Below, one piece after another: positions 9,343 through 34,914 of a stretch of DNA of 49,137 bases. Below the pieces are notes generated by a model. The model saw only the letters and a list, made by a program, of their open reading frames with translations, had not been told where the DNA came from and made no database searches. The stretch is taken from positions 1 to 49,137 of the IMG/VR virus record IMGVR_UViG_3300032897_000009. One strand, written 5' to 3'. The first letter of the stretch is position 1, and each line of letters starts with the position of its first letter. The DNA comes from a virus. The position numbers and the translations under genes were made by a program.

Positions 9343-9349
9343 GTTATGT
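9343..9349 (+). repeat. Lone attC core (R'), left edge of the cassette array
   Basis: GTTATGT fits the G^TTRRRY-type core only loosely, but its TTA gives the TAA stop of the first cassette gene, as in the other sites. I could not find matching L'/L'' arms to its left, so the array seems to end here. Confidence 0.45.
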
Positions 9350-9568
9350 TTCGCCTCCAACAACTTTATTTGCTAAATGACTCCAATCCCTATTCCTACG
9401 CATATCAGATGCATGTCCCTGTGGATGTGGGTATTCACAATCTTTAGCGTCGTGTCCCTCGTATCCACATTTTTTACAATGGCGAAACCTAACCAAGTTG
9501 CTCAAACTGACCTGATGAGCGTTTTGTGGTTCCTCCGCATTCTGTAATTTATTTTTTTGATCCGACAT
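9344..9568 (-). CDS. Cassette gene 1: zinc-knuckle protein
   Basis: 74 aa. The first ~29 residues are encoded inside attC-1 (start at 9568 after a TAGGAG site), the rest by the cassette body. The body has CKKCGYEGHDAKDC, a CCHC zinc knuckle that usually binds single-stranded nucleic acid. Stop is the TAA formed by the TTA of the core at 9343. Confidence 0.7.
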   Translation of the reverse strand: MSDQKNKLQNAEEPQNAHQVSLSNLVRFRHCKKCGYEGHDAKDCEYPHPQGHASDMRRNRDWSHLANKVVGGET

Positions 9569-9621
9569 ACTACCATCTCCTAAGTTTAGTGCAACGGCAG
9601 TTTAACAACCATCCGTTAGTT
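9487..9621 (+). repeat. attC-1 integron-type recombination site
   Basis: R'' ACCTAAC (9487-9493, perfect RYYYAAC), five-base spacer, L'' TTGCTCAAAC, and on the right L' GTTTAACAA and R' GTTAGTT (9615-9621). The arms pair with the extra C of L'' unpaired, the hallmark extrahelical base of attC. 135 bp. The loop holds the start codon of cassette gene 1 on the minus strand. Confidence 0.75.
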
Positions 9622-10191
9622 TGACAAAAATTGCACATCGCTTTCGACCTCATTTCCCCACGCATCCCATCCGTCTTTCCTCTCTCTTGCGAAAAGCTCT
9701 ATTCTCGGCAAGTCCCCAAGCAATTCAACAATTCTATTTCGCGCATCATCTGGTTTCTGGCTGTGTGCTAATCGTTGCGTTTCGATTAGCGCCCTTACAT
9801 TGTGCTTCCTAACTAATTTATGCGCTTCCTTGCCTCGTGTTGCCAACAAGCACAGTTCTATCCCGCTTTTCATCGTATATGCGCCCATAAAACAAACTGG
9901 CTTTCCCTGCTTATTTTTCTTCTGCCACGCAAACGCCACAGTCTTATATTCAAATCCCCATGCCTCAATAACCATCATACATTTTCTCAGGTGGTAGTCT
10001 GTCGTCCAAATAAAAAGAATGGCGTTTGCTTCTGCTATGTCCGCAATAGGCAATCGTTTTATTTCCTCCGTACTCATTACTTTATATGGTGGTCGTCTCA
10101 TTCCTTTTACCGTCGTGCAGTCCGGTTGTGCTGTGCTGTCATTGTAATAACTCCACGCGGGGTCTGCGTATATTATTTGGTATTTCTTCAT
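9616..10191 (-). CDS. Cassette gene 2: MT-A70-type adenine methyltransferase
   Basis: 191 aa. DPAW at residues 10-13 is the catalytic DPPW-type motif, followed by AILFIWTTDYHL and a conserved MGAYTMKSGIELCLLATRG stretch seen in MT-A70-like DNA N6-adenine methyltransferases. It probably protects phage DNA from host restriction. No own Shine-Dalgarno site: the ATG overlaps the stop of a 28-aa leader ORF (ATGA), so it is likely made by coupled translation. Its TAA lies in the core of attC-1. Confidence 0.9.
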   Translation of the reverse strand: MKKYQIIYADPAWSYYNDSTAQPDCTTVKGMRRPPYKVMSTEEIKRLPIADIAEANAILFIWTTDYHLRKCMMVIEAWGFEYKTVAFAWQKKNKQGKPVCFMGAYTMKSGIELCLLATRGKEAHKLVRKHNVRALIETQRLAHSQKPDDARNRIVELLGDLPRIELFARERKDGWDAWGNEVESDVQFLSN

Positions 10192-10274
10192 AGCAATTTT
10201 TGCAAACTAACCAGCGGCTCAAGATGACTGAAATAGCTCACTACAATTTCCCAAAGAGTAAATGCCGTGCTCAT
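10188..10274 (-). CDS. Leader ORF encoded by the attC-2 arm
   Basis: A 28-aa ORF ending HLEPLVSLQKLL. Its ATG overlaps the stop of the gene upstream (ATGA) and its TGA overlaps the ATG of the MT-A70 gene (ATGA). The segment LEPLVS is the same arm-encoded peptide found fused to other cassette proteins. Here it ends one codon before the methyltransferase, acting as a coupling leader. Confidence 0.6.
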   Translation of the reverse strand: MSTAFTLWEIVVSYFSHLEPLVSLQKLL

Positions 10275-10498
10275 TTTTCCGCAAGTTGCTTGCATAGGTT
10301 CTCATTTTCTATTTTGCAAAGTATTAAATCTCCTGCCAGCTTTTTCATTTTTTCGCGCCACTTCAAATCAGTTTCGATAATGTGGTCTATGTACCACATT
10401 TCCCGTTTGAAGCTACCATAACCGCGCTTGTTTAGATTTCCCTTGCAACGCGAAAGTAGTTCACGTTTTCGCAATCTTATAATTGTCAATGTCATCAT
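10271..10498 (-). CDS. Hypothetical protein in the attC-2 loop
   Basis: 75 aa, basic N-terminal half (RLRKRELLSRCKGNLNKRG) and a helical C-terminal half. The stop overlaps the leader ORF start; the start overlaps the upstream stop. No family recognised. Confidence 0.6.
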   Translation of the reverse strand: MMTLTIIRLRKRELLSRCKGNLNKRGYGSFKREMWYIDHIIETDLKWREKMKKLAGDLILCKIENENLCKQLAEK

Positions 10499-10686
10499 TC
10501 CTTGTTCCTCTCCATTCTCAACACTTCCAAGTTTTCCTCAATGTATTGTTTCAACTCCTTATCGCGGTCTCTCTCGGGTGGCGCGTCATCCCATTGCGCA
10601 TTTAACCAAAGTAGATATGATGCCCGAACATCTCGCAACTTTTCACCTTTGTATTTTCCAAACGGCATTATACTATCATCATTCAT
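10495..10686 (-). CDS. DUF3820-like protein
   Basis: 63 aa from the ATG at 10686 (GAGGG binding site). The pattern MPFGKYKGEKLRDVRASYLL fits the small DUF3820 family, found in phages and bacteria. An in-frame ATG at 10740, just inside the right arm of attC-2, would add 18 arm-linked residues, as in the other cassettes. Confidence 0.75.
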   Translation of the reverse strand: MNDDSIMPFGKYKGEKLRDVRASYLLWLNAQWDDAPPERDRDKELKQYIEENLEVLRMERNKE

Positions 10687-10781
10687 CTCTTTTTCCCTCG
10701 CACGGCATTTACTTATTTTTAACAACTTGAAAATTTTCATTACAGCATCTTAGCCGCAACCGTTAGCCAGATGCTCGTCGC

Positions 10782-11243
10782 TTATTTTACCCATTCCGGT
10801 CTACCCTCTCCATCCCAAGTTAATTCCTGCTCTTTGTAGTCCGTTGGATGTATTATTTTAAGGAAGGCAATCGCTAACTCTACAGCTTCTTCAACTGTCA
10901 TAACGCTTGCTTTATCCAGCGAGTATCCTTCTTTTTCGCTGTCGCAGGAAATTTCTACCCAAGCGTTTTCTCTTTCCGACCACCACATGTTGTTTTTTTC
11001 TTTTACAGTTACATACCAATGTTTCGCTCCAATACTTCCAATCCAACTGTTTATGTCAACGTGGATAGGTCTTTTCTCGCCTATCTTGCTTGGGTATCTT
11101 GGTATGCGTTCATCGCCGATATAATTCCAATCGTGCGTATAAATAGTTCTGTTCCCTCGCTCCTCGCACTGGCTAACCAGCGCATCAACCTGACGCTTGG
11201 AGCGTGGTGCAGTTTTCCGTTTCTTTATAATTTGTTTTGGCAT
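10782..11243 (-). CDS. Cassette gene 3: hypothetical protein with attC-encoded N-terminus
   Basis: 153 aa. ATG at 11243 (AAAGGA site) lies in the loop of attC-3. Residues through RQVDALVSQ are encoded by the attC arm. The body carries WWSERENAWVEIS and a C-terminal helical domain; I recognise no family. Stop lies 14 bases inside the cassette, not in the core. Confidence 0.7.
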   Translation of the reverse strand: MPKQIIKKRKTAPRSKRQVDALVSQCEERGNRTIYTHDWNYIGDERIPRYPSKIGEKRPIHVDINSWIGSIGAKHWYVTVKEKNNMWWSERENAWVEISCDSEKEGYSLDKASVMTVEEAVELAIAFLKIIHPTDYKEQELTWDGEGRPEWVK

Positions 11244-11301
11244 CGGTATTATCCTTTAATCAAGTTTCTTCTATGCGCAGGTTATGCGCAAATCGTTAGC
11301 C
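11171..11301 (+). repeat. attC-3 integron-type recombination site
   Basis: R'' GGCTAAC (11171-11177), spacer CAGCG, L'' arm GCGCATCAACCTG; right arm CAGGTTATGCGC and R' GTTAGCC (11295-11301). Thirteen-base arms pair perfectly except one unpaired C. 131 bp. The cleanest site of the array. Confidence 0.85.
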
Positions 11302-11493
11302 CGCGTGGCATTCGGTAAAATAATCATCTACTAAATCCTCAAGATCACCCAATCTATTCCGTGCAACACAACTATCGCACATCTCCATACTATCACACAT
11401 TGCAATTCCACCAGTACATGGTTGATTACTCTTTTTTTCTATTGCAAGTATCTTCTTATACAAACGTGCAACTCTATCATAATCATCGTTCAT
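11296..11493 (-). CDS. Small cysteine-containing hypothetical protein
   Basis: 65 aa from the ATG at 11493 after an AAGGAGGAAGG site. Contains CTGGIAMCDSMEMCDSC, a possible metal site. TAA comes from the core of attC-3. It is the last gene of a 2.4-kb block with several genes and no attC between them. Confidence 0.65.
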   Translation of the reverse strand: MNDDYDRVARLYKKILAIEKKSNQPCTGGIAMCDSMEMCDSCVARNRLGDLEDLVDDYFTECHAG

Positions 11494-12443
11494 TTTCCTT
11501 CCTCCTTCTGCCTTGCGGAGAGCCATTTGGACTTTGGCGCATATTTACTTTTTAATAATCCAAATTTATTAGCTACTCTCTTCCCACAAAAAGGACAATA
11601 TATTCCATTGAAAACTTCGCTATCCGTCGCTCTTACTCCACAAGATGTCGTCCACAATTCGCCTGGCGGATCGTCTCGAACGAGGCGACATATTTCCTCT
11701 CTCCCACCATTTTGAATCTTGGAACGAGAGGCGAATTCGTCAAGATGTTGCTTTGCAATAGCCCGAACAAGTTCAATTATCTCATATCCACTCAGTTCTT
11801 CTCCATTTTGCTTGCTCACCCGATATGTCGCAATTACCGCAGCGATTACTTCAACCAGCTTTTCCTCTCTCCCACCATTCTCAGACGTCTGGTCGGCATG
11901 AGCCACAGTTATGGTTTTTTTAATTTCGTCCTCATAACTTCTCGTCAATTCGTTAAATCTGTCAAGTGTTGCTTTTGCTTTTTCCCTATCCGTCGTTGAT
12001 ATGTTAGGCGCAACATACATTATGTTGTAAAGCTCCAAACGAAATTGAGAGACTTGTTTAACATAATTCAACACCAAGTTAACCAGTAGTTTAGCCTGAA
12101 GCGCGGAATTGATTTTATCAGGCTCTACATTGGTAAGGTCTACAGACCCGAATTCATTTGGCTCTTCGTTATTCGTTTTGTCAACAAGCGCGGAGACTGA
12201 CGCAACGAATCCCTCAAATGTCATGAGATGCGGATGCCGTGTCTGATACTCGCCGTGGATGCTGTGTTCATCATAGAGCTTCTTGATTGATTCCCTGTCT
12301 ATCGAGTTGGCAGAGAGTGCGGAGATTAACCATTCAAACAATTCTAACGGGGTCACTCCGTATGGCAAACCGGCGCATGTTAGGGAGTGGTTCTTGTACT
12401 TTTCATTATATGCAGAAATTATCTGTTCTAGGTTTATATCCAT
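11490..12443 (-). CDS. Multidomain hypothetical protein with C-terminal zinc ribbon
   Basis: 317 aa from the ATG at 12443 (AAAGGA site; an upstream TTG-type start is less likely). Contains two copies of an NGGREE junction motif (about residues 188 and 245) that joins small phage modules, a helical EIIELVRAIAKQHLDEF segment, and a CxxC...CPFCGKRV zinc ribbon near the end. Looks like a mosaic of short modules. Function unknown. Confidence 0.65.
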   Translation of the reverse strand: MDINLEQIISAYNEKYKNHSLTCAGLPYGVTPLELFEWLISALSANSIDRESIKKLYDEHSIHGEYQTRHPHLMTFEGFVASVSALVDKTNNEEPNEFGSVDLTNVEPDKINSALQAKLLVNLVLNYVKQVSQFRLELYNIMYVAPNISTTDREKAKATLDRFNELTRSYEDEIKKTITVAHADQTSENGGREEKLVEVIAAVIATYRVSKQNGEELSGYEIIELVRAIAKQHLDEFASRSKIQNGGREEICRLVRDDPPGELWTTSCGVRATDSEVFNGIYCPFCGKRVANKFGLLKSKYAPKSKWLSARQKEEGK

Positions 12444-12511
12444 CGATCTTTTCCTTTGGTTAGACCGCACGAAGTACAAAGATTCTCTCCCAATATCCTA
12501 TATTTTATCAT
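12434..12511 (-). CDS. Micro-ORF with CxxC motif
   Basis: 25 aa containing CTSCG. ATG overlaps the previous stop (ATGA) and the stop overlaps the next gene. Short, but placed in a continuous stop-start chain. Confidence 0.4.
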   Translation of the reverse strand: MIKYRILGENLCTSCGLTKGKDRWI

Positions 12512-12585
12512 GGATAAGATCCCGCCCACATAGAATCTACTGCGCCTTCTACGGAACAAAAAACAAATTCTTTCTTCCAGTCCAT
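12508..12585 (-). CDS. Micro-ORF after a strong ribosome binding site
   Basis: 25 aa preceded by GGAGGATGTG, the same sequence that precedes the 12612-13190 gene. Stop overlaps the next ATG. The repeated initiation signal suggests a duplicated or swapped 5' end. Confidence 0.4.
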   Translation of the reverse strand: MDWKKEFVFCSVEGAVDSMWAGSYP

Positions 12586-12611
12586 CACATCCTCCAAGAT
12601 TAATTGTCTCA

Positions 12612-13190
12612 TTAAACTTTCTTTTTGCCTTGCGGAAGAAGAGGATTGAATCCCATGTGCTGTTCGACTGCGAATCTATTCATGCCTCCTATCCGCTCAA
12701 GAACTTCTTTTGCGTTTTGTTTTGTGGCGCATACCATCGCACGACTAAAGTCTCCGGTCATGGATGGCTTGCTCTCAATGTAAGATCCGTCATAATAAAA
12801 TGGAGATGCGCCGACATAGCAAACTATGCACCATCCACACACCTCTTCCTCTTTTTCGATCTTATAAGCTACGGGATGCGATACGATAGCTTTATTTCCT
12901 ATTTCCCAAAACTTACGTTCAATGTCTTGCGCACTCATTCTCTTGAAATCTATCATGCACTTGCTGCACTGCATTTCTCCGTCATCACCATAGAGAACAT
13001 GATCTGCACCATGCATCATCCAAAGAAGTCTGCGCATCACATTTTCTGCCTCTCTGCCACCATTCTCAGATAGCGCGGAGACTGCTTGCAAATCGTTCAC
13101 AAGTTCCCTCAAAGAGTAGTTTTTCCCTACCCAAATTGAACCAGAATGATCTGCTCTGCTTAGCTTTGATAAAATATCTTTTATGTCCAT
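12612..13190 (-). CDS. Hypothetical protein with CxxC pairs
   Basis: 192 aa from the ATG at 13190 (GGAGG site). Contains the NGGRE junction motif (about residue 43), CSKC and CGWCIVC pairs that could bind zinc, and a C-terminal helical part. Shares the NGGRE module with the 11490-12443 protein. No function recognised. Confidence 0.65.
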   Translation of the reverse strand: MDIKDILSKLSRADHSGSIWVGKNYSLRELVNDLQAVSALSENGGREAENVMRRLLWMMHGADHVLYGDDGEMQCSKCMIDFKRMSAQDIERKFWEIGNKAIVSHPVAYKIEKEEEVCGWCIVCYVGASPFYYDGSYIESKPSMTGDFSRAMVCATKQNAKEVLERIGGMNRFAVEQHMGFNPLLPQGKKKV

Positions 13191-13204
13191 CACATCCTCC
13201 GAGA

Positions 13205-13411
13205 TTATGAACGCTTGTTCCAATGCACCGCAGTATATTTTACATCGTTCTCTTCTTTTCCCTTCGTGCTTTCGGGGGTAGAGAGTTTTTCGTATGAATC
13301 ATATAGTGTATTTAGGGTGGAAACTACATGTTCATATTCTGCATCAAGATCGTGTTGATCTGCCGGATAAAAAGAACCAATTAATTCTTTGAATTTTTCT
13401 CTATCCAACAT
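13205..13411 (-). CDS. Small acidic hypothetical protein
   Basis: 68 aa from the ATG at 13411, seven bases after AAGGAG. Predicted helical and acidic. No family recognised. Confidence 0.6.
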   Translation of the reverse strand: MLDREKFKELIGSFYPADQHDLDAEYEHVVSTLNTLYDSYEKLSTPESTKGKEENDVKYTAVHWNKRS

Positions 13412-13412
13412 T

Positions 13413-13682
13413 TCATTTCTCCTTATGCAGTTCAAATCTTTTACGTCTGGTAACTTCAACTATTTTTCGTGCGTCAACTAATATCGCGCCAAACTCTATA
13501 GCCTTATTTCTTTTCGAGATGCAGACATCGAAGTGCTCATCATACTTCCCTTGTTTCTGAATCCACTTGATATTAACACCTATCTTTTGCGCCATACTGA
13601 TTAGTTCTTCATGAGTGTCGGCTATCATGTGGCACATTTTCATTCTACCAAAATTATTTCTTGCATCATCAATGTAAACCAT
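13413..13682 (-). CDS. Hypothetical protein (89 aa)
   Basis: ATG at 13682 follows AAGGAGG by nine bases; an upstream ATG at 13730 has no such site. Beta-alpha composition with ISKRNKAIEFGAILVDARKI. The attC-4 site lies immediately upstream, separated by a short arm-encoded ORF. Confidence 0.65.
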   Translation of the reverse strand: MVYIDDARNNFGRMKMCHMIADTHEELISMAQKIGVNIKWIQKQGKYDEHFDVCISKRNKAIEFGAILVDARKIVEVTRRKRFELHKEK

Positions 13683-13696
13683 CGCGCCGCGCCTCC

Positions 13697-13795
13697 TTAT
13701 AGATAAAATGCAACAGAACCAGCGGTGCAAGCTGACCGAGCCAGCATGCTACTTTTGTCCGTAGCCTTTATGATGTTTTTAGATCCGAGTTCCAT
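13697..13795 (-). CDS. Short ORF encoded by attC-4
   Basis: 32 aa. ATG in the attC-4 loop, reads out through the L''/R'' arm and stops just after it, overlapping the ribosome binding site of the next gene. The same layout as the cassette proteins but ending early, so it may be a leader or a remnant. Confidence 0.4.
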   Translation of the reverse strand: MELGSKNIIKATDKSSMLARSACTAGSVAFYL

Positions 13796-13842
13796 AATCT
13801 TTCAAGTTCTTTCTATCGGCAGCTTCACCGCATCCGTTAGCC
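13713..13842 (+). repeat. attC-4 integron-type recombination site
   Basis: Degenerate R'' ACAGAAC (13713-13719), arm GCGGTGCAAGCTG; right arm CAGCTTCACCGC and R' GTTAGCC (13836-13842). Arms pair with one unpaired base. 130 bp. The weak R'' suggests the left cassette boundary is old or rearranged. Confidence 0.7.
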
Positions 13843-14151
13843 AGATGCGGCATCCTCTGAATGACACGCTTTCAGAATCCTTTTTATTTGTTTGGGCGTT
13901 GCTCCAGCATCGCGCATATAATCGGCAATTAATTCGTCTGGCAATGGAACACCATCATCGTCGATGAAGAAATCTTGCGCAAACAACCAGTGTATCAATG
14001 CCTCCCAATTACTTACACACTCAAGAAGCACCTTGGCTTGGCTCTCATAGCCGCACTGGCTAACCAGCGGGTCAAGCGCGACCGGACGCTCCTCCGGTCG
14101 CAAATCCGTTTTGTTATTAGTTTCTTCAATCGATTTTTGTTCGTTATTCAT
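13837..14151 (-). CDS. Cassette gene 5: hypothetical protein with attC-encoded N-terminus
   Basis: 104 aa. ATG at 14151 (GGAG site) in the loop of attC-5; residues through LDPLVSQ come from the attC arm. The body holds GVPLPDELIADYMRDAGATPKQIKRIL, a helical segment. TAA lies in the core of attC-4. Unknown function. Confidence 0.7.
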   Translation of the reverse strand: MNNEQKSIEETNNKTDLRPEERPVALDPLVSQCGYESQAKVLLECVSNWEALIHWLFAQDFFIDDDGVPLPDELIADYMRDAGATPKQIKRILKACHSEDAASG

Positions 14152-14189
14152 AGTTTCATCTCCGGCGGCTTACCCGCCATCCGTTGCCC
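14058..14189 (+). repeat. attC-5 integron-type recombination site
   Basis: R'' GGCTAAC (14058-14064), CAGCG, arm GCGGGTCAAGC; right arm GGCTTACCCGC and R' GTTGCCC (14183-14189). 132 bp, one unpaired C. The altered core has no TTA, and correspondingly the next gene ends with its own TGA. Confidence 0.8.
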
Positions 14190-14191
14190 GG

Positions 14192-14392
14192 TCACTTCGC
14201 TCGCGTGAATCGACTCTCAAATTCTGCATGTTCAAGTTTCTTTAATAGCAAACTTAATCTATCAGCCATGTGCTGTCCCCAATCGGTTCCCGAATTGTCG
14301 CGTGTCGCCTGCTCGCAGGCAATTTCTGTCACCAAAACTATCAGCTCCGTAATGACCGTGTATATATCTATTTTGCCTTTTCTCTTTGCCAT
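14192..14392 (-). CDS. Small hypothetical cassette protein
   Basis: 66 aa from the ATG at 14392 (AAAGGA site). Starts MAKRKGK, helical, with an EHAEFESRF end. Begins outside the attC, unlike most cassette genes. TGA just beyond the core of attC-5. Confidence 0.6.
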   Translation of the reverse strand: MAKRKGKIDIYTVITELIVLVTEIACEQATRDNSGTDWGQHMADRLSLLLKKLEHAEFESRFTRAK

Positions 14393-14450
14393 AAAATTCC
14401 TTTCTATAAAGTTCGCCGATTCAAAACCTCTCGCTCCGTGAAATATCACC

Positions 14451-14602
14451 GGGCAACGCCGGGCGGGCTATCGCCCTCTGCTTGCCCGTAACGCACTCGC
14501 TTCGCTTCGTGCCGGGCAACCATCGGGTCAAGTTGTCCTCGCTCCAAATTGGACAAAAGATGTCCATTTTCTGCTCGGCAACTTACCCGCCCGGCGTTAT
14601 GG
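14451..14602 (+). repeat. attC-6, compound site
   Basis: Inner site 14514-14602: R'' GGGCAAC, arm TCGGGTCAAGTTG, right arm CAACTTACCCG, R' GTTATGG (14596-14602). A second R''-like arm GGGCAACGCCGGGCGGG at 14451 also pairs with the right arm (CCCGCCCGGCGTTAT). So two left arms compete for one right arm. attC-12 has the same design. Confidence 0.65.
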
Positions 14603-14627
14603 CGCTCCAAGGATTTTTTGCGCTTCA
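14595..14627. repeat. 33-bp duplicated cassette end (copy 1)
   Basis: Identical to 19503-19535. In copy 2 it encodes the C-terminus EAQKILGAP of an intact cassette gene. Here the same coding end is left without a gene, directly at the border of the replication block, so this is a truncated cassette. Confidence 0.8.
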
Positions 14628-14639
14628 GTTTCTTGTAAG

Positions 14640-15062
14640 TCATTTTCCTTCCTTATGCAGTTTGTCGTATTTGGTGGAGAGAAAAATTTTAAGCGAATCA
14701 ATCTGACTATCCAATGGACTTCTATCGACCCACTTCAAAAATACCTCTGTTCCTCCCTCGATGAATGCCTGTCGAGCGGTAGAGGAAATGCGAGCCTTGA
14801 GCCATTCGACAAATTCTTCAGTGTATTCATTGAGACTATATTCATCTGTTCGATAAATCGAATGCCCAGTTTCTTTTTCAAACTCTTGTTCGTAGTTCAT
14901 CGTCATCTCTCTGTGTTTGGGGGAAAATTGACTTAGGTTGCAGTCGCATTTGTCACAAATATCATCAAACTTATTCTTTACATGGTACTTACACTCCTCG
15001 CATTTGATAATAACGGACATGTCTGCGCGGGGAATAACCTTGTCTAACCTTTTCTTCTTCAT
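14640..15062 (-). CDS. Hypothetical protein with N-terminal zinc ribbon
   Basis: About 140 aa from the ATG at 15062 (GAGG site). CEECKYH...CDKCDC forms a zinc ribbon at about residues 20-43, followed by an EYTEEFVEWLKARI helix common in small phage proteins. It lies just downstream of the helicase gene. Confidence 0.65.
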   Translation of the reverse strand: MKKKRLDKVIPRADMSVIIKCEECKYHVKNKFDDICDKCDCNLSQFSPKHREMTMNYEQEFEKETGHSIYRTDEYSLNEYTEEFVEWLKARISSTARQAFIEGGTEVFLKWVDRSPLDSQIDSLKIFLSTKYDKLHKEGK

Positions 15063-15063
15063 T

Positions 15064-15216
15064 TTACTTTCCCTCTGCAATGATGAGACACTTCTTGTTC
15101 TTGAATCCTACGATGGTCAATGGTTTTTCTCGAAGGACTCTACCATAAAAGTATTTCCCGTTTCTTTCTACCATTCCTTCAGGAGCGTTTTCTGATTTCA
15201 GCTTTTCAAAAAGCAT
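15064..15216 (-). CDS. Small hypothetical protein overlapping the helicase 3' end
   Basis: 50 aa from the ATG at 15216, which overlaps the last codons of the helicase gene. A longer reading upstream would lie fully within the helicase in another frame. Basic, beta-rich (KPLTIVGFKNKKCLIIAEGK). Unknown. Confidence 0.5.
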   Translation of the reverse strand: MLFEKLKSENAPEGMVERNGKYFYGRVLREKPLTIVGFKNKKCLIIAEGK

Positions 15217-16483
15217 CTTGTTGTGGTTCTGGTTCTGGAACATTTGAGTGGCTTCTCCAGCTTCCGTTAAGTGTGTCGTAGAATAGTTTAGTATCACCGA
15301 ATCCACCAGACAATCCCATGCGTTGACGAATCTTGACTCCTACCACCTTTCCAGATCCAACAATTTCATGATGATCGTCTGAGTCAATGATGATCATCTT
15401 ATCCATGTCCTGTTCGACAGCCATAGATTCACGGGCACGCATTTCCTTGTTGAGCTGAGATAAACCAATCACTGGCACATCGAATTTCATTGCGATATTT
15501 TTCAAACCGGAAGAGATTGAAGCTATCTCGCGCTCCCGGTTGTCGGTTGACTTCTTTGTGATTGGAACTATCTTCTGTATATAGTCCACGGCAGCAATCT
15601 TCACTCCGCGCTCCGTGATAAACCTTTCTGCATCAGAATAAATATCTGATACCGTCATTACTCCGTCCCGAACATAAAGAGGCAGAGATCCAATCATATT
15701 GATCCTTCGCGACAGGCGCGCCCAATCTTCTTCTGACAAATTATTTCTTTTCACCTTAATCCACGGGATTGATTCTTTGATAAGAGCGTACCGAAACAAG
15801 AGTTGTTTCCGCTTCATCTCTGCCGAGAATATGATCCCCGGAATACCATGCTCTGCATTTTGGAACATCGTTTGAAGCATCAAAGTGGTCTTTCCGTGCT
15901 TCTCAAGAGCAGCAATGATAACCAGATCGCCCTTCTCCATTCCCCCAGTAGTAAAATCAAGGTCAAAGAATCCAAAGGGAATAGATGACTGCATGCCTTT
16001 GCGTATATTCTCAAGCTCCGTATGAGCTTCCCCGGCGACCGTAGACATTGATACCGCGTGTTCCTTTTTGAACTGTCCGACAAGGGCTGCAAGCGTAGAA
16101 ATTGAACTTTCGATTGCCTCAAATGGATCAGGATTGTCTCGGAAGTCTGTATAGAGTTCAATCAAAGACTTCTCGCCCATTCGCTTCATATAATTTTCAG
16201 CTATCTTCCGGGCGTGAACTATAACTCGGGTATACGTATCTACTTTTGAACACCACTCGTAAACCGGGAAAGTGTCAAGGTTACGGGATTTCGCATAGTC
16301 CTCGATAAGAACAAAATCAACCGTCCCGTGATTGTCAAAGGTATCAAGGATAGATTCCCAAAGACTTGCACATTGAGGGTCTTGGAAGAATGATCCGTCT
16401 GGAAGTATTGCCCGAGCCTCGGTGACTTGCTCACCCAAAGACAAAGCAGAAGCGATGAATGTCTGTTCAAGGGATAGCTTCAT
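15206..16483 (-). CDS. dnaB: Replicative DNA helicase (DnaB-like)
   Basis: 425 aa. RecA-like motor with Walker A ALEKHGKTT (192-200; first Gly replaced by Ala), a DYIQKI segment, and the DnaB-type IGLSQLNKEMRARES motif. Unwinds DNA at the phage fork. The N-terminal domain is short. Its ATG overlaps the stop of the organiser gene (ATGA). The replication pair sits between the two halves of the cassette array. Confidence 0.93.
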   Translation of the reverse strand: MKLSLEQTFIASALSLGEQVTEARAILPDGSFFQDPQCASLWESILDTFDNHGTVDFVLIEDYAKSRNLDTFPVYEWCSKVDTYTRVIVHARKIAENYMKRMGEKSLIELYTDFRDNPDPFEAIESSISTLAALVGQFKKEHAVSMSTVAGEAHTELENIRKGMQSSIPFGFFDLDFTTGGMEKGDLVIIAALEKHGKTTLMLQTMFQNAEHGIPGIIFSAEMKRKQLLFRYALIKESIPWIKVKRNNLSEEDWARLSRRINMIGSLPLYVRDGVMTVSDIYSDAERFITERGVKIAAVDYIQKIVPITKKSTDNREREIASISSGLKNIAMKFDVPVIGLSQLNKEMRARESMAVEQDMDKMIIIDSDDHHEIVGSGKVVGVKIRQRMGLSGGFGDTKLFYDTLNGSWRSHSNVPEPEPQQDAF

Positions 16484-17139
16484 ACTTTCATTCCACTTTG
16501 TCTTGCAAGAGCAAGAGCAGATACGGGTTCTGTTTTTTTCTTCCCATTCCCATTTAATATCCCCTTGACGTACGCCAGAGATTTGGCGTTGTGATTCGCC
16601 GCCTCTTCGATTGCGACGAAAACTTTTTCCTTGCTGTGGATTTTTATTAAGTCAACGAATTTTGATAATGCGCCCCAGCCCATTTTTCCCTCGCGCCCCC
16701 AAAATTTCAAAAGATGTTGTTCTAATGAAAGAGAAAATTCATCATCATGAATATGATCTTCTTCTTTTCTATTCTCTTCTTGCGATAAAGGAGCTTTAAA
16801 GTCACTTTTAAGTGGTTTTTGGTATCTAGTGAAATTATCCGCATATTCGGCGAATTTCTCACATTTTACCCTGAGCAACCCATTTGACAGTGTGTCAACC
16901 TTTAGCTTTCCGCGCTGTGTAGCAAAGGTGTAGAGTCTCCGTAGGTGATCCGTCCGCTTGCTGTGTATCACCTGTCGCCAGACATTTTCGCTTATGTCCA
17001 TCGATCCGGCTTCTCCCTGTGCCCCTAATAATTCAAGAGTCTTGAACCAGAATACGTATCCAGAATCTCCAAATTCTGCTTCAAGGTCTTTGATAAACAA
17101 ATCTTCCATCGCGTTAGTCATGTGCTTAAACCATTTCAT
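16480..17139 (-). CDS. Replisome organiser / helicase loader-like protein
   Basis: 219 aa. The N-terminal MKWFKHMTNAMEDLFIKDLE...GYVFWFKTLELL is the winged-helix start of phage replication initiation proteins (DUF4373-like). The C-terminal part has a DnaD/DnaC-like helical region ending in GILNGNGKKK. Probably binds the origin and loads the helicase encoded just downstream. Starts by ATGA overlap with a 39-aa ORF. Confidence 0.8.
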   Translation of the reverse strand: MKWFKHMTNAMEDLFIKDLEAEFGDSGYVFWFKTLELLGAQGEAGSMDISENVWRQVIHSKRTDHLRRLYTFATQRGKLKVDTLSNGLLRVKCEKFAEYADNFTRYQKPLKSDFKAPLSQEENRKEEDHIHDDEFSLSLEQHLLKFWGREGKMGWGALSKFVDLIKIHSKEKVFVAIEEAANHNAKSLAYVKGILNGNGKKKTEPVSALALARQSGMKV

Positions 17140-17255
17140 AAGCCAAGTTCATCCGCAATCTTTTGAATTGCTTTTTCATATTCGTCGGGAGTCAATCCAA
17201 TTTCGATAAGTATCTTTTTGCGGAGTTCGTACTGAATCCATTTGAATTCTATCAT
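17136..17255 (-). CDS. Small protein upstream of the replisome organiser
   Basis: 39 aa, ATG preceded by AGGTGTG, stop overlapping the next ATG (ATGA). Helical, charged (KWIQYELRKKILIEIGL). It is the first gene after the structured leader RNA, so it would report the outcome of any attenuation. Confidence 0.6.
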   Translation of the reverse strand: MIEFKWIQYELRKKILIEIGLTPDEYEKAIQKIADELGL

Positions 17256-17261
17256 AACACA

Positions 17262-17377
17262 CCTAAAAAGAAACACAGCCCCATCGTAGCGCAACTACGA
17301 AACGGATTGGAGGGTTAACTCCAACGGGGCTGTGAGTTATTAGTCTATGTCGTAAATACGTTTCATAATTGCGCTAC
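17262..17377 (-). ncRNA. Structured leader or small RNA with interleaved stems and terminator
   Basis: Beginning at the promoter start point, the minus-strand RNA has strand a (17377-17359), strand b (17334-17326, CACAGCCCC), hairpin c (TTGGAG/CTCCAA, 17324-17307), strand a' (17304-17286) and b' (17282-17274, GGGGCTGTG), then TTTCTTTTT. a and a' pair over 19 positions (two G-U); b and b' over 9. The stems interleave, so they form a pseudoknot or two exclusive folds. The b-b' stem plus T-run is a terminator. This fits an attenuator for the replication genes or a ~115-nt stand-alone RNA. Confidence 0.75.
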
Positions 17378-17380
17378 AAA

Positions 17381-17409
17381 ATGATACGTCTTTTTTGCAA
17401 ATTTGTCAA
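17381..17409 (-). promoter_or_regulatory. Sigma70-like promoter for the leader RNA and replication genes
   Basis: TTGACA (17409-17404), 17-base spacer, TATCAT (17386-17381). The upstream 15 bases through TTGACA are shared with the element at 25259-25264. The predicted start point falls at the first base of the leader RNA stem. Confidence 0.8.
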
Positions 17410-17433
17410 GTTAATAATTCAACTATTTTTCAC

Positions 17434-18351
17434 TTAGCTGTGTCGGGGAAGAGAATCAACTTCTTTGATTCGTTTGAATATCTCAAAGGCTATTTGTGGA
17501 ACAATCGCGTTGCCAAGACCGTGTCCTCGTTTTCCATCTGATTCTAAACTTGCTGTATAGTTATCTTCATATCCCATCAGTCTTTCCTTTTCTATCGGCA
17601 TTAGTTTCCGCAATATAAGTGTCTTGCCATACAAAGGAAGTGTTTCCTCTTGGGGTTGCTCCGATTGTTTGAGCGACGATATTTCTACTTCTTGTTCCTG
17701 TGGAACCCGTGAAGTCAGTCGTTCCAACAGCGAAAGCGATAAGAGTTTCATTCGTTGGGTCGTTTCGTTCACCATCTCTTGTAGAAATACATAACCCCCT
17801 CTGCCCCATTTTTGACTTCGCCTTACCATTCCCTGCACCGCCTTCCTGCTCAAATAATACTTCGGCGGAACATGTGTCTCCAAAACTTCCGACAATCCAC
17901 AACCTTCGCCTTCTTTGAGCCACTCCGAAGTATTGAGCATCAAGCACTCTCCACGCCACGCAATACCCGATTTCGGAAAGCTTGGCGATGATGAACGCCA
18001 TATCTCTCCCACCGTTGACAGAAAGAAGTCCGGGAACATTTTCGAGCACAAACCATTCTGGTTTAGTTTCCTCAATAATTCTTGCCAACTCGCCAAACAG
18101 TCCGGTTCTTTTTCCGGCAAGTCCTTCTCGCTTTCCAGCAATGGAAGCGTCTTGGCAAGGGAATCCTGCTGTGAGAATGAAATCTTTTGTATATCGCCTA
18201 AGCATTCAGAGTCCTTAATGTGTTCGTGGTATACCGTGCAGCCGTTTTCATCTATTTCGCTGTGCCCTATATTTCCGTAGTTTTCCTTCCAACATCTTTG
18301 TGCCGCAAGTGCAAATCCGCCGATTCCTGAAAATAGATCAATATGTCTCAT
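17434..18351 (-). CDS. Cytosine methyltransferase locus 1, frame A (N- and C-terminal motifs plus overlapping central protein)
   Basis: 305 aa, start supported by GGAG and an ATGA overlap. Residues 1-57 carry methyltransferase motif I (DLFSGIGGFALAA); the last ~50 carry the C-terminal motif (GLGNAIVPQIAFEIFKRI). The middle 200 residues are not methyltransferase in this frame. They read SLAKTLPLLESEK...SGIAWRGECLMLN...GLSEVLETHVPPKYYLS, which I recognise as a recurrent phage hypothetical-protein pattern. The catalytic motifs are in frame B over the same bases. A full enzyme would need a -1 then a +1 shift. Confidence 0.7.
   Translation of the reverse strand: MRHIDLFSGIGGFALAAQRCWKENYGNIGHSEIDENGCTVYHEHIKDSECLGDIQKISFSQQDSLAKTLPLLESEKDLPEKEPDCLASWQELLRKLNQNGLCSKMFPDFFLSTVGEIWRSSSPSFPKSGIAWRGECLMLNTSEWLKEGEGCGLSEVLETHVPPKYYLSRKAVQGMVRRSQKWGRGGYVFLQEMVNETTQRMKLLSLSLLERLTSRVPQEQEVEISSLKQSEQPQEETLPLYGKTLILRKLMPIEKERLMGYEDNYTASLESDGKRGHGLGNAIVPQIAFEIFKRIKEVDSLPRHS
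17567..18205 (-). CDS. Cytosine methyltransferase locus 1, frame B (catalytic core)
   Basis: An open frame of 212 aa holding the C5-methyltransferase centre: GFPCQD (catalytic Cys17), LENVPG (Glu55) and QRRRR (97-101), plus a variable target-recognition region. It lacks motif I and the C-terminal motif, which are in frame A. An ATG at 18205 exists but has no clear binding site. Either a split/frameshifted gene or a natural overlap. It may be inactive as annotated. Confidence 0.6.
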   Translation of the reverse strand: MLRRYTKDFILTAGFPCQDASIAGKREGLAGKRTGLFGELARIIEETKPEWFVLENVPGLLSVNGGRDMAFIIAKLSEIGYCVAWRVLDAQYFGVAQRRRRLWIVGSFGDTCSAEVLFEQEGGAGNGKAKSKMGQRGLCISTRDGERNDPTNETLIAFAVGTTDFTGSTGTRSRNIVAQTIGATPRGNTSFVWQDTYIAETNADRKGKTDGI

Positions 18352-18419
18352 TTTCTCTCCGGTATCCCCTCAGGCGTGTAACGGAAAATCTTGATTCTGA
18401 TATGGCGTTCAGTTTCCAT
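18348..18419 (-). CDS. Micro-ORF coupled to methyltransferase locus 1
   Basis: 23 aa with AAGGGG six bases before the ATG; its TGA overlaps the ATG of the methyltransferase (ATGA). Probably a translational-coupling leader. Confidence 0.45.
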   Translation of the reverse strand: METERHIRIKIFRYTPEGIPERK

Positions 18420-18471
18420 CGTTTTTCCCCTTGTATTTATTAGCTCATTCATCGATTCTTAGTACTTAGTA

Positions 18472-18478
18472 GTTATAC
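18472..18478 (+). repeat. Lone attC core (R') at the right border of the replication block
   Basis: GTTATAC, the same core as in attC-10, supplies the TAA stop of the second cytosine methyltransferase. I see no convincing paired arms to its left, so this is probably what remains of an attC cut off when the replication block came to lie here. Confidence 0.45.
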
Positions 18479-19465
18479 GGACACGGCGGCAATGGCTCTA
18501 AAAATCTCAAAAGCCACTTGCGGCACAATCGCGTTTCCTAATCCTTTAAGTCTGTCCATCCTATGGGGTATCCCATTAGCCACTCGACCCACTCCGGGTT
18601 CAGTTGACCACCAATCACTGTCGCAAGGTTCTGTCCACCTTGTCCATGTTCTCCCGGTGTTTGCCATGCTCTCGCTGTTGGCGTTGGAAACATTTCCCTT
18701 GCCAGTACACTCTCCAAGTTGTTGAATTTGTCCATCGATCGATTTGGTGTCACTGCACCGGTCATCCTTGCCCTCGGTGTTGGAAGCAATCCCGCTCTTG
18801 CAAGGATGTGAAGCGAGGACTGTATTTTCTTTCCGTTCGCTTTTTTGAAATATGTTTTGTGGAATGTCCAATCCTCTTTTATTTTCCTTCCATCCTCGCT
18901 TGCTCCGGGCGTTGGCAACAATCCATATTCTGTCCCGTCTATGGTTGGCACCGATACCCGCAGCCGGAATAAGGAACGTTTGTGTTTCATAGTTGAGTGC
19001 TTCCAAGTCATCAAGCACGTTGTCGAGTGCCATCTTAACGATACCAGCAACATTTTCGCCAACGATCCAAGCCGGCCTGGCTTCCGATATAACTCTAAGC
19101 ATCTCAGGCCAGAGATAACGGTCATCTTCCTTGCCTTTTCGCTTCCCGGCAACACTAAAAGGTTGGCAAGGGAATCCGCCGGAAACAACGTCAATGGTTC
19201 CTCGGTATTGTGTTCCGTCAAAGTCTCGTATGTCGCGGTATCGTTTTGCATTCGGAAAGTTCCTTTCTAAAACCTTTGTGCAGTAATCATCAATCTCAAC
19301 TTGGAAAACATTTTCCCATCCTGTCCATTGTGCCGCAAGATCAAATCCGCCAATGCCCGAAAAAAGACTGCCGTGCCGTATAACACGCCGCTCAACGGTG
19401 ACGGGATGAGCGTGGTTGCAATCTTCCGTTTCAGTAATATTTTTATTGGTATCGGCATTCATCAT
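18473..19465 (-). CDS. dcm: Cassette gene 7: intact DNA cytosine-5 methyltransferase
   Basis: 330 aa, all key motifs in one frame: LFSGIGGFDLAA (motif I, ~34-45), GGFPCQPFSVAGKR (catalytic Cys100), GENVAG (~136-141), RRDRIWIVA, and GLGNAIVPQVAFEIF at the end. Methylates cytosine, probably to evade restriction. The first ~30 residues, through VERRVIRH, are encoded by attC-7; the TAA lies in the lone core at 18472. No clear binding site before the ATG. A second long ORF overlaps it in the +1 frame. Confidence 0.92.
   Translation of the reverse strand: MMNADTNKNITETEDCNHAHPVTVERRVIRHGSLFSGIGGFDLAAQWTGWENVFQVEIDDYCTKVLERNFPNAKRYRDIRDFDGTQYRGTIDVVSGGFPCQPFSVAGKRKGKEDDRYLWPEMLRVISEARPAWIVGENVAGIVKMALDNVLDDLEALNYETQTFLIPAAGIGANHRRDRIWIVANARSKRGWKENKRGLDIPQNIFQKSERKENTVLASHPCKSGIASNTEGKDDRCSDTKSIDGQIQQLGECTGKGNVSNANSESMANTGRTWTRWTEPCDSDWWSTEPGVGRVANGIPHRMDRLKGLGNAIVPQVAFEIFRAIAAVSV
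18538..19251 (-). CDS. Overlapping +1-frame ORF inside the cytosine methyltransferase gene
   Basis: 237 aa, fully inside the methyltransferase gene in the +1 frame, starting at an ATG that has AAGGA nine to ten bases upstream. The translation (DSLANLLVLPGSEKARKMT..., repeated LLPTP, and the end NPEWVEWLMGYPIGWTDL) matches a pattern I know from separate phage hypothetical proteins found near dcm genes. That a shifted frame carries it suggests real overprinting, not chance. Whether it is made is untested. Confidence 0.5.
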   Translation of the reverse strand: MQNDTATYETLTEHNTEEPLTLFPADSLANLLVLPGSEKARKMTVISGLRCLELYRKPGRLGSLAKMLLVSLRWHSTTCLMTWKHSTMKHKRSLFRLRVSVPTIDGTEYGLLPTPGASEDGRKIKEDWTFHKTYFKKANGKKIQSSLHILARAGLLPTPRARMTGAVTPNRSMDKFNNLESVLAREMFPTPTARAWQTPGEHGQGGQNLATVIGGQLNPEWVEWLMGYPIGWTDLKD

Positions 19466-19510
19466 TATTCAAGTTTTGTTCACCCGCACGTTAGCGGCAA
19501 ATCGTTATGG
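19378..19510 (+). repeat. attC-7 integron-type recombination site
   Basis: R'' GTATAAC (19378-19384), arm GCCGCTCAACGGTG; right arm CACGTTAGCGGC and R' GTTATGG (19504-19510). 133 bp. Contains the start codon and first ~25 codons of the cytosine methyltransferase. Confidence 0.8.
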
Positions 19511-19535
19511 CGCTCCAAGGATTTTTTGCGCTTCA
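19503..19535. repeat. 33-bp duplicated cassette end (copy 2)
   Basis: Identical to 14595-14627. Contains the attC-7 core and the last codons of the 19505-19744 gene. Confidence 0.8.
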
Positions 19536-19744
19536 ACTACGATATGCCACCATGCGCTCATAGTATTCGGGTGCTCGAATCCCGTTGTCAGTCCGCTGAG
19601 TTGGGCGGTCTGTCTTTCGATCTCGCAAATTCTTATTGATTCAAGGAGCGCCATAACATCGTGCTCAAGATGACGATTTGAGCTACTAGTGGTTAGTCCG
19701 TCTTGTTGTAGTTTTTCTTGCGTCGGGTTCTGTTCGTCATTCAT
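19505..19744 (-). CDS. Cassette gene 8: hypothetical protein with attC-encoded N-terminus
   Basis: 79 aa. ATG at 19744 (AAAGGA site) in attC-8, reading out through HLEHDVMALLES, then a body ending WWHIVVEAQKILGAP. TAA in the core of attC-7. The cassette ends are inverted copies of each other (GGAGCGCCATAAC). Its 3' end also survives at 14595-14627. Unknown function. Confidence 0.7.
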   Translation of the reverse strand: MNDEQNPTQEKLQQDGLTTSSSNRHLEHDVMALLESIRICEIERQTAQLSGLTTGFEHPNTMSAWWHIVVEAQKILGAP

Positions 19745-19782
19745 ACTTTATCCTTTCGCATCTTAGCAGGGTACCGTTAGCC
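19651..19782 (+). repeat. attC-8 integron-type recombination site
   Basis: R'' CCATAAC (19651-19657), arm GTGCTCAAGATG; right arm CATCTTAGCA and R' GTTAGCC (19776-19782). 132 bp with the usual unpaired C. Confidence 0.8.
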
Positions 19783-20112
19783 CGTCGCCAACATTTTTTC
19801 ATATTGAGCAAGTGTGTTTTTCATGTCATTAATGGATAGTCGCGCTTCTGCATCCGTGCCACCATTGTCCATGTGTAGGCGTATGAATCCTCGTTTATCC
19901 ATGTCTATGCGTTCAATTGGCAATAGCCATGTCTCAATATATTCGTCTTCAACAATCCCATCAGCATCCACGCCGGTCGTCATCATCATCTTGGTAAACT
20001 CTTTTTCCTCTGTTGTCTGTTGGCGCGGGCTAACCAAGCGGCCCATGCTGACAAGATCAGCGTCCGTTGGTAAGTCCGTTTTGGTAATATTTTTTATGGT
20101 ATCGGGTTTCAT
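19777..20112 (-). CDS. Cassette gene 9: hypothetical protein with attC-encoded N-terminus
   Basis: 111 aa. ATG at 20112 in attC-9, arm-encoded part through SMGRLVSPRQ, then a body with DEYIETWLLPIERIDMDKRGFI and a helical end. TAA from the core of attC-8. No clear Shine-Dalgarno site. Unknown function. Confidence 0.7.
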   Translation of the reverse strand: MKPDTIKNITKTDLPTDADLVSMGRLVSPRQQTTEEKEFTKMMMTTGVDADGIVEDEYIETWLLPIERIDMDKRGFIRLHMDNGGTDAEARLSINDMKNTLAQYEKMLATG

Positions 20113-20160
20113 CTAAATTCTAAGTCCGTTTACTTGCAGCATAGCCGCCATCCGTTAGGC
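20028..20160 (+). repeat. attC-9 integron-type recombination site
   Basis: R'' GGCTAAC (20028-20034), arm GCGGCCCATGCTG; right arm CAGCATAGCCGC and R' GTTAGGC (20154-20160), a perfect GTTRRRY core. 133 bp. Confidence 0.85.
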
Positions 20161-20463
20161 GGATGTTGCCGCCTCAAATAATGGTGTATCACTTATTTTC
20201 TTTTGTTTGTAATGTCCGCAGTTATTTATTAGGTCAAGAGAAACAAGCAAATCTGGTTTTCTTGTCACCCATGTAAACGTTCCCGCTATCTTGGCAAATT
20301 CTCCACAAAACGAATGTGTGTAAATTCCAGTTCCTTCGTCATCTTCAAGTTCTTGTCGTAGGTGTTCACAGTGGCGGCAACACTGCCTAACACGCACGTC
20401 AAGCTGACGGAGGGTAGCCGTGTGGTCAATTCCGATTTGTATTATTTTCTTTTGCTTCGACAT
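20155..20463 (-). CDS. Cassette gene 10: Cys/His-rich protein with attC-encoded N-terminus
   Basis: 102 aa. ATG at 20463 (AAAGGA site) in attC-10; the arm encodes through LRQLDVRVRQ. The body opens with CCRHCEHLRQE and has later Cys/His (SFCGEF, NCGHY), a likely zinc site. TAA in the core of attC-9. No family recognised. Confidence 0.7.
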   Translation of the reverse strand: MSKQKKIIQIGIDHTATLRQLDVRVRQCCRHCEHLRQELEDDEGTGIYTHSFCGEFAKIAGTFTWVTRKPDLLVSLDLINNCGHYKQKKISDTPLFEAATSA

Positions 20464-20516
20464 ACTACAATTCCTTTTGTTTTGTGCATCCGCAGCTTAC
20501 GTGCAAATCGTTATAC
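20385..20516 (+). repeat. attC-10 integron-type recombination site
   Basis: R'' GCCTAAC (20385-20391, perfect), arm GCACGTCAAGCTG; right arm CAGCTTACGTGC and R' GTTATAC (20510-20516). Thirteen-base arms pair exactly apart from one unpaired C. 132 bp. Confidence 0.88.
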
Positions 20517-21272
20517 GGCAGCGAACTGCATTGGCAATTGTAAAAGGTATTCATTAAATCGCTTCTCCTGTGCTTGAAAGTAATCGCTGTCTATTTCGCA
20601 TCCAACAAAATCAAGACCCGCCTTATGGCAAGCTATACGAGAGCTTCCGCTTCCTAAATGGGTATCTAAAACATTGCTTCCCTGTTCGGCAAAATTTTCT
20701 ATAATCCACCTGTAAAGCTCAATCGGTTTTTGTGTCGGGTGTATTCTTTGTTCCTTGTTTTTCATATTACCCTGCAACATTCCTTGCCACTTGTATGTAA
20801 ATCTTCTTATGCTTCCATCTAATGATGTCCAAGCCAATTCTATCCCCGAAAATTGCTTATCGCAACCAGAGGGTATCTTATCCCAAACAATCCATTGGCT
20901 TGATTTTGGCAAGAAGTCGGTATAGTGTTGCGCTCCAAATATAATTTGATCTTGGCTCACTCTTCTTAGTTCATCAAAGTATTCCTTAGTCGGTCTTTCC
21001 GTATCATCGAAGTGTTTATACAGGTTTAATTTTGCCGCCTGTGGTTTCCCTCTTGAAATAATTCCATCCTCTTCGTTACAATAACCAATGCCATAAGGCG
21101 GGTCAACAATTGCCAATGCAAAGAACTTATCAGGTACAGTCTTCATGTATTCCATGCAATCTATGTTCAGTGCAATGCTCTGGGGCTGCCGTATAACCAG
21201 CGGCTCAACCGGATGTAATGAGCGTTCCGTTTTAATTTCCGTATCAGTTAATATGTTTATTTGTTTCGACAT
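20511..21272 (-). CDS. Cassette gene 11: N4/N6 DNA methyltransferase (beta class)
   Basis: 253 aa. DPPYG (57-61) is the catalytic motif; the SAM site LDTHLGSGSSRIAC lies near the C-terminus, so the order is that of beta-class amino-methyltransferases. HPTQKP precedes it. Methylates adenine or cytosine at the exocyclic amine, likely for anti-restriction. Residues 1-28, through VEPLVIRQ, come from attC-11. TAA from the core of attC-10. Confidence 0.93.
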   Translation of the reverse strand: MSKQINILTDTEIKTERSLHPVEPLVIRQPQSIALNIDCMEYMKTVPDKFFALAIVDPPYGIGYCNEEDGIISRGKPQAAKLNLYKHFDDTERPTKEYFDELRRVSQDQIIFGAQHYTDFLPKSSQWIVWDKIPSGCDKQFSGIELAWTSLDGSIRRFTYKWQGMLQGNMKNKEQRIHPTQKPIELYRWIIENFAEQGSNVLDTHLGSGSSRIACHKAGLDFVGCEIDSDYFQAQEKRFNEYLLQLPMQFAAV

Positions 21273-21322
21273 TCGTTTTTAGTAAGGTTTTTTCATACAC
21301 CGGTTAGCCGCAACCGTTACGC
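21191..21322 (+). repeat. attC-11 integron-type recombination site
   Basis: R'' GTATAAC (21191-21197), arm GCGGCTCAACCGG; right arm CCGGTTAGCCGC and R' GTTACGC (21316-21322). Perfect pairing except one C. 132 bp. Holds the start of the DPPYG methyltransferase. Confidence 0.85.
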
Positions 21323-21565
21323 GGTCGCGGAAAAGCGTTCACGGCGTTTTTCATCAAGCACTTTCATAAAGTCGGCAGAAATATATTCTCCCATGAGCGC
21401 CCAGCGAATCTCAAGGACCGCCCTTCTTCTTACTTCTTCTGCCGCATCGGCCATTTCCTTGGTATTTTTTTTCCATTCTACCATCGGATGTTCATAATCG
21501 AGAATGGCGTTTGCTATTCTAATCAAGTCCGATGTTTTTACAGCTACCGTTGTCTCTTGTTCCAT
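21317..21565 (-). CDS. Small helical cassette protein
   Basis: 82 aa from the ATG at 21565 (AAAGGG site). Helical, charged, ending KVLDEKRRERFSATA. TAA in the core of attC-11. Starts outside the attC, next to a compound site, like the 14192-14392 gene. Unknown function. Confidence 0.65.
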   Translation of the reverse strand: MEQETTVAVKTSDLIRIANAILDYEHPMVEWKKNTKEMADAAEEVRRRAVLEIRWALMGEYISADFMKVLDEKRRERFSATA

Positions 21566-21617
21566 GGTTTTTCCCTTTCTAATTAAGCCGTTCACTGGTT
21601 CTCGCTTCGCTCGAAGC

Positions 21618-21763
21618 ACCGCGTAACGAAGGGCGGGCTTACGCCCTCGGTTCCGCAAGCAGCGCGGTTCCCGCGCCGCGTAACCATCGGGTCAAGTTGC
21701 CGAAATCAACTGGTAAGCAAAAAGCGCTTCCCGTTGCGGCAACTTACCCGCCCTTCGTTAGCC
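21618..21763 (+). repeat. attC-12, compound site
   Basis: Inner site 21678-21763: R'' GCGTAAC, arm TCGGGTCAAGTTGCCG, right arm CGGCAACTTACCCG, R' GTTAGCC (21757-21763), 86 bp. An outer arm GCGTAACGAAGGGCGGGC near 21618 pairs with the same right end (CCCGCCCTTCGTTAG). Twin of attC-6. Confidence 0.65.
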
Positions 21764-21901
21764 CGATTGCCTCGCTGAATTGTCTTTTATCCATTGCTTT
21801 GTCCATTGTACTCCTCTTGCAAATGCAACTTTTAAGATTGGTATATATTCGTTTTGTGTTCCATACTCCGGCGAATACATTTCTTTTGCCGCTTCAATCA
21901 T
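21758..21901 (-). CDS. Terminal cassette gene, 5' end truncated
   Basis: 47 aa from the ATG at 21901 (EYIPILKVAFARGVQWTKQW in the centre). The frame is open upstream through the half attC-13, with TAPSPSRQVETLVSPLPSDEE, which mirrors the arm-encoded TAPRSKRQVDALVSQ of attC-3, but the part with the usual start codon is missing. TAA from the attC-12 core. Confidence 0.55.
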   Translation of the reverse strand: MIEAAKEMYSPEYGTQNEYIPILKVAFARGVQWTKQWIKDNSARQSG

Positions 21902-21921
21902 TTCCTCGTCGCTCGGCAACG

Positions 21922-21958
21922 GGCTAACCAGCGTTTCAACCTGACGGGATGGGCTTGG
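21922..21958 (+). repeat. Half attC-13 at the right edge of the array
   Basis: R'' GGCTAAC (21922-21928), CAGCG, then TTTCAACCTGACGGG, followed by sequence related to attC-3 (GGTGCGGTG), but no right arm or core. The NinB-like gene stops ten bases further on. The array is cut here. Confidence 0.7.
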
Positions 21959-24806: not shown

Positions 24807-24890
24807 ACTTCTTTCCTTTTGTGTGAGTGAATAAAGTTCTGGATTCTCTCGCGCTAAAGCCATTGTCCGTTCCTCGGTCTGTGGAATAAA

Positions 24891-34905: not shown

Positions 34906-34914
34906 ATATCCTCC

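Follow-up and report, generated by a model that had tools for sequence, protein, structure and literature searches.

How can a phage carry an array of integron-type recombination sites without coding for an integron integrase? The stretch analysed here, hereafter the window, is the IMG/VR virus record IMGVR_UViG_3300032897_000009, a linear and maybe incomplete sequence of 49,137 bp with portal, terminase, capsid, DnaB, Erf and lysis-type genes on its minus strand. Between positions 9343 and 21945 it contains 11 complete attC sites of 86-135 bp, together with one split site, one half site and two lone cores (Table 1). Their cores, arms and covariance scores confirm these sites as integron-type attC, and the virus seems to exchange genes in the manner of an integron without itself coding for an integrase. 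Very likely, the array is a phage CALIN (cluster of attC sites lacking integron-integrases) of inverted format, the cassettes of which are traded among phages by an integron integrase acting in trans; we infer both the enzyme and the host of this exchange.

All 11 complete sites listed in a preliminary description of this DNA were located by a structural scan, in which they lie, from 9487 to 21763, on the plus strand. At the threshold used, shuffled sequence yielded 1.5 sites on average over both strands, and 0 at the next stricter threshold; scans with a fixed stem length recovered too few sites. The R'' (RYYYAAC) and R' (GTTRRRY) cores claimed for the 11 sites are present, a few of them departing by one or two bases, and the extra base in L'', described as a constant unpaired C, occurs at every complete site and is always C. 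Also borne out was the view that the arms are paired but variable between sites: with their own partners they pair at 106 of 121 positions, whereas arms swapped between sites reach a mean of 74.5 and a maximum of 95 paired positions, none of 20,000 swaps attaining the value of the own arms. Two of the checks that had been proposed, a covariance model and folding, gave the same picture. Built from 17 attC of bacteria and phage TJE1, with the window sequence excluded, our model R1 recovered the same 11 sites, all on the plus strand, with 58 to 24 bits and E-values of 9e-12 to 1.3e-3, while its best match on the minus strand of the window had 9.8 bits and none exceeded 10 bits. R1 also detects the attC of class 1 integron cassettes (dfrA12-orfF-aadA2), which are absent from its training set and are missed by the strict structural scan; on phage H101 it gave no attC match, and Rfam at the gathering threshold gave no match in the window. 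Folded as DNA, single sites adopt the expected hairpin with one bulge.

No tyrosine recombinase (PF00589) was found in the window, in agreement, for the linear record, with the earlier claim of a phage-borne array without its own integrase. With at least two attC close together and no integron integrase in the record, the array is a CALIN and not a complete integron, for which PF00589 gave no match and attI was not searched for. Bacterial metagenome-assembled genomes (MAGs) with an integron integrase carry similar attC (CAGCG spacer, TCAA, then TGAC), and in one of them, the Ignavibacteria-related G018, integrase and array share a contig and are arranged divergently, as is usual.

The boundary of a cassette is R'. 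Comparing R' of one site with R'' of the next, which are the two ends of one cassette body, revealed a match of about 10-19 bp in most bodies, whereas R'' and R' within one site match at just 3 to 7 of 7 positions. Matching ends are expected if cassettes pass through a circle, and they are found in most bodies of the window and in all six scored in the phage record G001; the body ends of the bacterial array G031 match too. In most phage bodies the matching ends include one unpaired base 2 bp outside R' (position 10, R' side), seen in about 19 of 22 matched bodies from the window, L088 and L100 (three of them read by eye) versus none of 11 in G031. In the MT-A70 methyltransferase body (9616-10191), the ends GTTAGTTTG(A)CAAAAATTGC form an inverted repeat with such a one-base bulge. 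The region 11302-13712 between attC C and D, with about five small genes, has non-matching ends, and it is possibly made up of several cassettes whose attC were lost.

Every cassette gene of the window runs antisense to its attC; the same direction is usual but not obligatory, and inverted cassettes are already known. Among the comparison arrays, forward genes account for 27 of 29 scored in G031 and for all three in both the G018 array and phage TJE1. Eight complete sites of the window (A, C, E, G, H, I, J and K) carry an ATG in the attC loop, which precedes the GTT of R'' by 66-87 nt. From there, the leaders of all eight cross L'' and R'' in a single reading frame; several sites have the next frame open over the core as well, yet unused, and so constant a leader frame suggests selection. 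In most genes, the attC loop and arm supply the start codon and the first 22-29 codons, and the stop lies within the complement of the following R' core or close to it; a cassette would thus need no promoter and could be translated from the phage transcript. Start codons placed in loops in a constant frame, on a coding strand that folds into a hairpin, would also suit RNA or translation elements, hairpins holding each start codon, in place of recombination sites, and attC hairpins have been reported to influence the translation of downstream cassettes (PMC4670013). We find this explanation scarcely credible, as it leaves unexplained why the R' and R'' cores are conserved, why the unpaired base never varies, why the two ends of a body match on either side of the gene and why the breaks in other phages fall sharply at the cores. 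A second role of the attC hairpins in translation is possible.

The same inverted format was found in two phage records, G001, whose left end bears seven sites, and G009, which has at least four; their sites measure 127-131 bp or have longer loops with genes inside. More long-loop attC were noticed in L100 (8541-8981 and 10776-11014) and L088 (1955-2324), the first of these loops containing an open reading frame, as split site B does. The DNA patterns used to find related records are independent of gene direction, and the records with genes antisense to attC probably represent only two phage groups. On a quick look, the genes of L042 may run in the usual direction. Many loci retrieved with short DNA patterns turned out to be coincidental matches within coding sequence, and L103 and L166 were rejected as such. 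A weak attC match (27 bits) in the terminase relative L006 was likewise set aside, as it resembles a GC-rich palindrome without a GTT core. With DnaB as query, no relatives were found in viral contigs. A literature search that included few subscription papers and no bioRxiv preprints turned up no report of inverted phage cassette arrays or of start codons in attC loops.

Signs of exchange come from comparisons within the window and with these relatives. The different sites attC F and G are followed by an identical 32 bp starting at the exact GTT, with 1 base in common on the left, and in G001 the same 17 bp from GTT stand after two different attC. Gene J is located after attC J in the window, but after attC B in G009, and here identity begins at the exact GTTAGGC (R''), with 17 identical bp on the right side and none on the left. 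For attC B with the two genes in its loop, window and G009 share 91% (275 bp) and 97% (74 bp) nucleotide identity, which ends at the R' and R'' cores, the flanking gene bodies being different; their structural proteins are just 25-49% identical and their terminases 28%. The C5 methyltransferase is an attC cassette in the window and in G001, where attC flank it on both sides; aligned stretches are 77-83% identical, and its end cores change jointly, being GTTAGGC in G001 and GTTATAC in the window. For the N6/N4 methyltransferase (20511-21272), a relative (50%) occurs in a forward cassette of phage TJE1. In gene order, the arrays of the window and of G009 have their main part between DnaB and terminase; the array of G001, cut by the contig end, is located upstream of a relative of the gene adjoining the large terminase of the window. 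According to the preliminary description, its reading would be refuted if all relatives had these repeats in one fixed order with no gain or loss of genes; instead, G001 and G009 carry mostly different cassettes.

Could these patterns stem from a relic? In that case, a fragment of a bacterial integron would have been captured a single time and since then rearranged solely by homologous or annealing recombination between similar attC blocks. The window does code for an Erf-type annealing protein homologue (23775-24863), and the attC blocks resemble each other and could act as homology. The joints, however, lie inside the 7-bp core and not in longer shared blocks (32 versus 1 bp; for J, 17 versus 0 bp), and divergent sites have retained both the extra C and the matching body ends, which homologous shuffling would not select. 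All genes are inverted, too, unlike in a captured bacterial array, and on the whole a relic seems improbable. Joints at R'' as well as at R', and the one-base bulge 2 bp outside R' that most phage but no bacterial bodies display, are features that a dedicated phage recombinase exchanging at both cores could explain in place of an integron integrase; we hold this to be highly improbable, given that the sites closely fit the bacterial attC model and that no tyrosine recombinase was found in the window, G001 or G009.

That no integrase was found also counts against the reading that we prefer, an integron integrase supplied in trans, and further points weigh against it. When 294 genomes from the class to which G018 belongs were searched for terminase relatives, identity was only about 30%, and no host was found. 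Terminase relatives with flanking DNA are almost all without attC sites according to R1, so that the array may be peculiar to a small group of phages. The movement of cassettes is read from sequences, and no excision or insertion was observed. Moreover, the R'' joints (attC B, J) are not expected from bottom-strand recombination and would need top-strand recombination or another process: an integron integrase acts on the folded bottom strand, the top strand being about a thousand times less efficient (PMC8946536). They may reflect either accumulated top-strand events, microhomology at the cores or a different exchange polarity.

If an integron integrase acts in trans, the recombining bottom strand would be the coding strand of the phage, because the genes are antisense to the attC. 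Transcription of the phage coding strand would pass through bodies and attC, each attC starting the next gene, and an integrase from the host or from a co-resident element would excise and insert bodies together with their attC. Through site-specific recombination at the GTTRRRY cores, cassettes would be gained, lost and moved between phages. The recombining strand, being also the non-template strand, might be exposed by transcription; in bacteria, its placement relative to replication matters (PMC5371416, PMC11023631). We consider it rather unlikely that the phages keep a cassette economy of their own, a separate inverted pool in which bodies and attC units with loop genes swap at R' and R'', so that the array alternates two mobile units. 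In such a pool, inverted cassettes would be silent once captured by a bacterial integron and expressed in a phage.

Phage attC clusters without an integrase are already known; new are the inverted format and an exchange between phages whose breaks coincide with the cores. In the study by Qi et al. 2023 (PMC9892861), 17 phage CALINs were reported, and of the six sites from virulent phages that were tested, IntI1 recombined five; only recently, and in a few virulent phages, have integron cassettes been shown. The CALINs of virulent phages (PMC9892861), namely Tetrasphaera phage TJE1, Polaribacter phage P12002L and Pseudoalteromonas phage H101, likewise combine attC without an integrase with methyltransferase cassettes. 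TJE1 has three sites and genes in the usual direction, whereas the window has 11 complete sites plus fragments, inverted genes and starts inside attC, and it differs from the known phage CALINs by units shared between phages and by breaks at the cores. The chromosomal integron arrays of Ignavibacteria-related MAGs (G031, G018) share with the window the cores, the CAGCG-type spacer, TCAA with the extra C, TGAC after L'' and matching body ends, but have forward genes, attC mostly of 156-197 bp and no bulge at the body ends. Class 1 cassettes (dfrA12-orfF-aadA2), whose attC are detected by the same model, differ in their forward genes, the start codon in the body and the presence of an integrase. 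Five further IMG/VR records (G010, G013, G014, G015, G016) resemble the window in having attC antisense to the phage genes, but their attC are short (53-104 bp) and the start codon usually lies outside attC. Unlike the window, the phage-like record G014 (IMGVR_UViG_3300036940_000365) carries a split integron integrase gene beside its terminase: it matches TIGR02249 with 346 bits in two overlapping frames (L092:1008-1945), directly upstream of a terminase-like large open reading frame, and the antisense attC are located near both contig ends.

The case of the window suggests that phages exchange cassettes mutually, in a format working within the phage transcript. This bears on viruses as a reservoir and exchange route for integron cassettes, and on natural recombination at R''. 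The methyltransferases among the cassettes could shield phage DNA from restriction.

Table 1. Features of the attC array of the window, in order of position.
Feature	Position	Strand	Remarks
Lone R' core GTTATGT	9343..9349	+	Outer end of first cassette body; matches R'' end of attC A (GTTAGGTTTCGCC)
Small protein, 74 aa	9344-9568	-	Start in attC A; no Pfam match
attC A, 135 bp	9487-9621	+	Loop holds ATG of gene 9344-9568
MT-A70 methyltransferase cassette body	9616-10191	-	Pfam PF05063
Split attC B, 564 bp	10205-10768	+	R''-L'' 10205-10225; L'-R' 10744-10768
Two small genes in attC B loop	10271-10498, 10495-10740	-	Between R''-L'' and L'-R'
Cassette gene, 153 aa	10782-11243	-	Start in attC C
attC C	11171-11301	+	Top model score, 58.1 bits
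attC D	13713-13842	+	Structural scan, covariance model
Cassette gene, 104 aa	13837-14151	-	Start in attC E; stop TAA in complement of R' of D
attC E	14058-14189	+	Structural scan, covariance model
attC F, short form, 89 bp	14514-14602	+	Structural scan, covariance model
32-bp body end	14596-14627	+	Identical to 19504-19535; begins exactly at GTT of R'
DnaB-type helicase	15206-16483	-	Separates array halves; phage core gene, no cassette
Lone R' core GTTATAC	18472..18478	+	3' end of C5 methyltransferase body
C5 cytosine methyltransferase cassette	18473-19465	-	Pfam PF00145; start in attC G
attC G	19378-19510	+	Structural scan, covariance model
Cassette gene, 79 aa	19505-19744	-	Start in attC H
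attC H	19651-19782	+	Structural scan, covariance model
Cassette gene, 111 aa	19777-20112	-	Start in attC I
attC I	20028-20160	+	Structural scan, covariance model
Cassette gene J, 102 aa	20155-20463	-	Start in attC J
attC J	20385-20516	+	Structural scan, covariance model
N6/N4 DNA methyltransferase cassette	20511-21272	-	Pfam PF01555; start in attC K
attC K	21191-21322	+	Structural scan, covariance model
attC L, short form, 86 bp	21678-21763	+	Structural scan, covariance model, folding
Half site M, R''-L'' only	21922-21945	+	No L'-R' found

The short sites F and L have arm sequences in common, and next to each lies a palindromic, GC-rich stretch that has additional GTAAC cores (14430-14540 for F, 21590-21700 for L), the two being 74% alike over 90 bp. 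Elsewhere in the window, a pentapeptide-repeat protein is encoded at 28328-29086, with a repeat-rich partial relative in L009. Two adjacent 303-aa genes at 33994-35826 both match one neighbouring region of G009 (L101, about 13.9-15.8 kb) and are likely the result of a tandem duplication.

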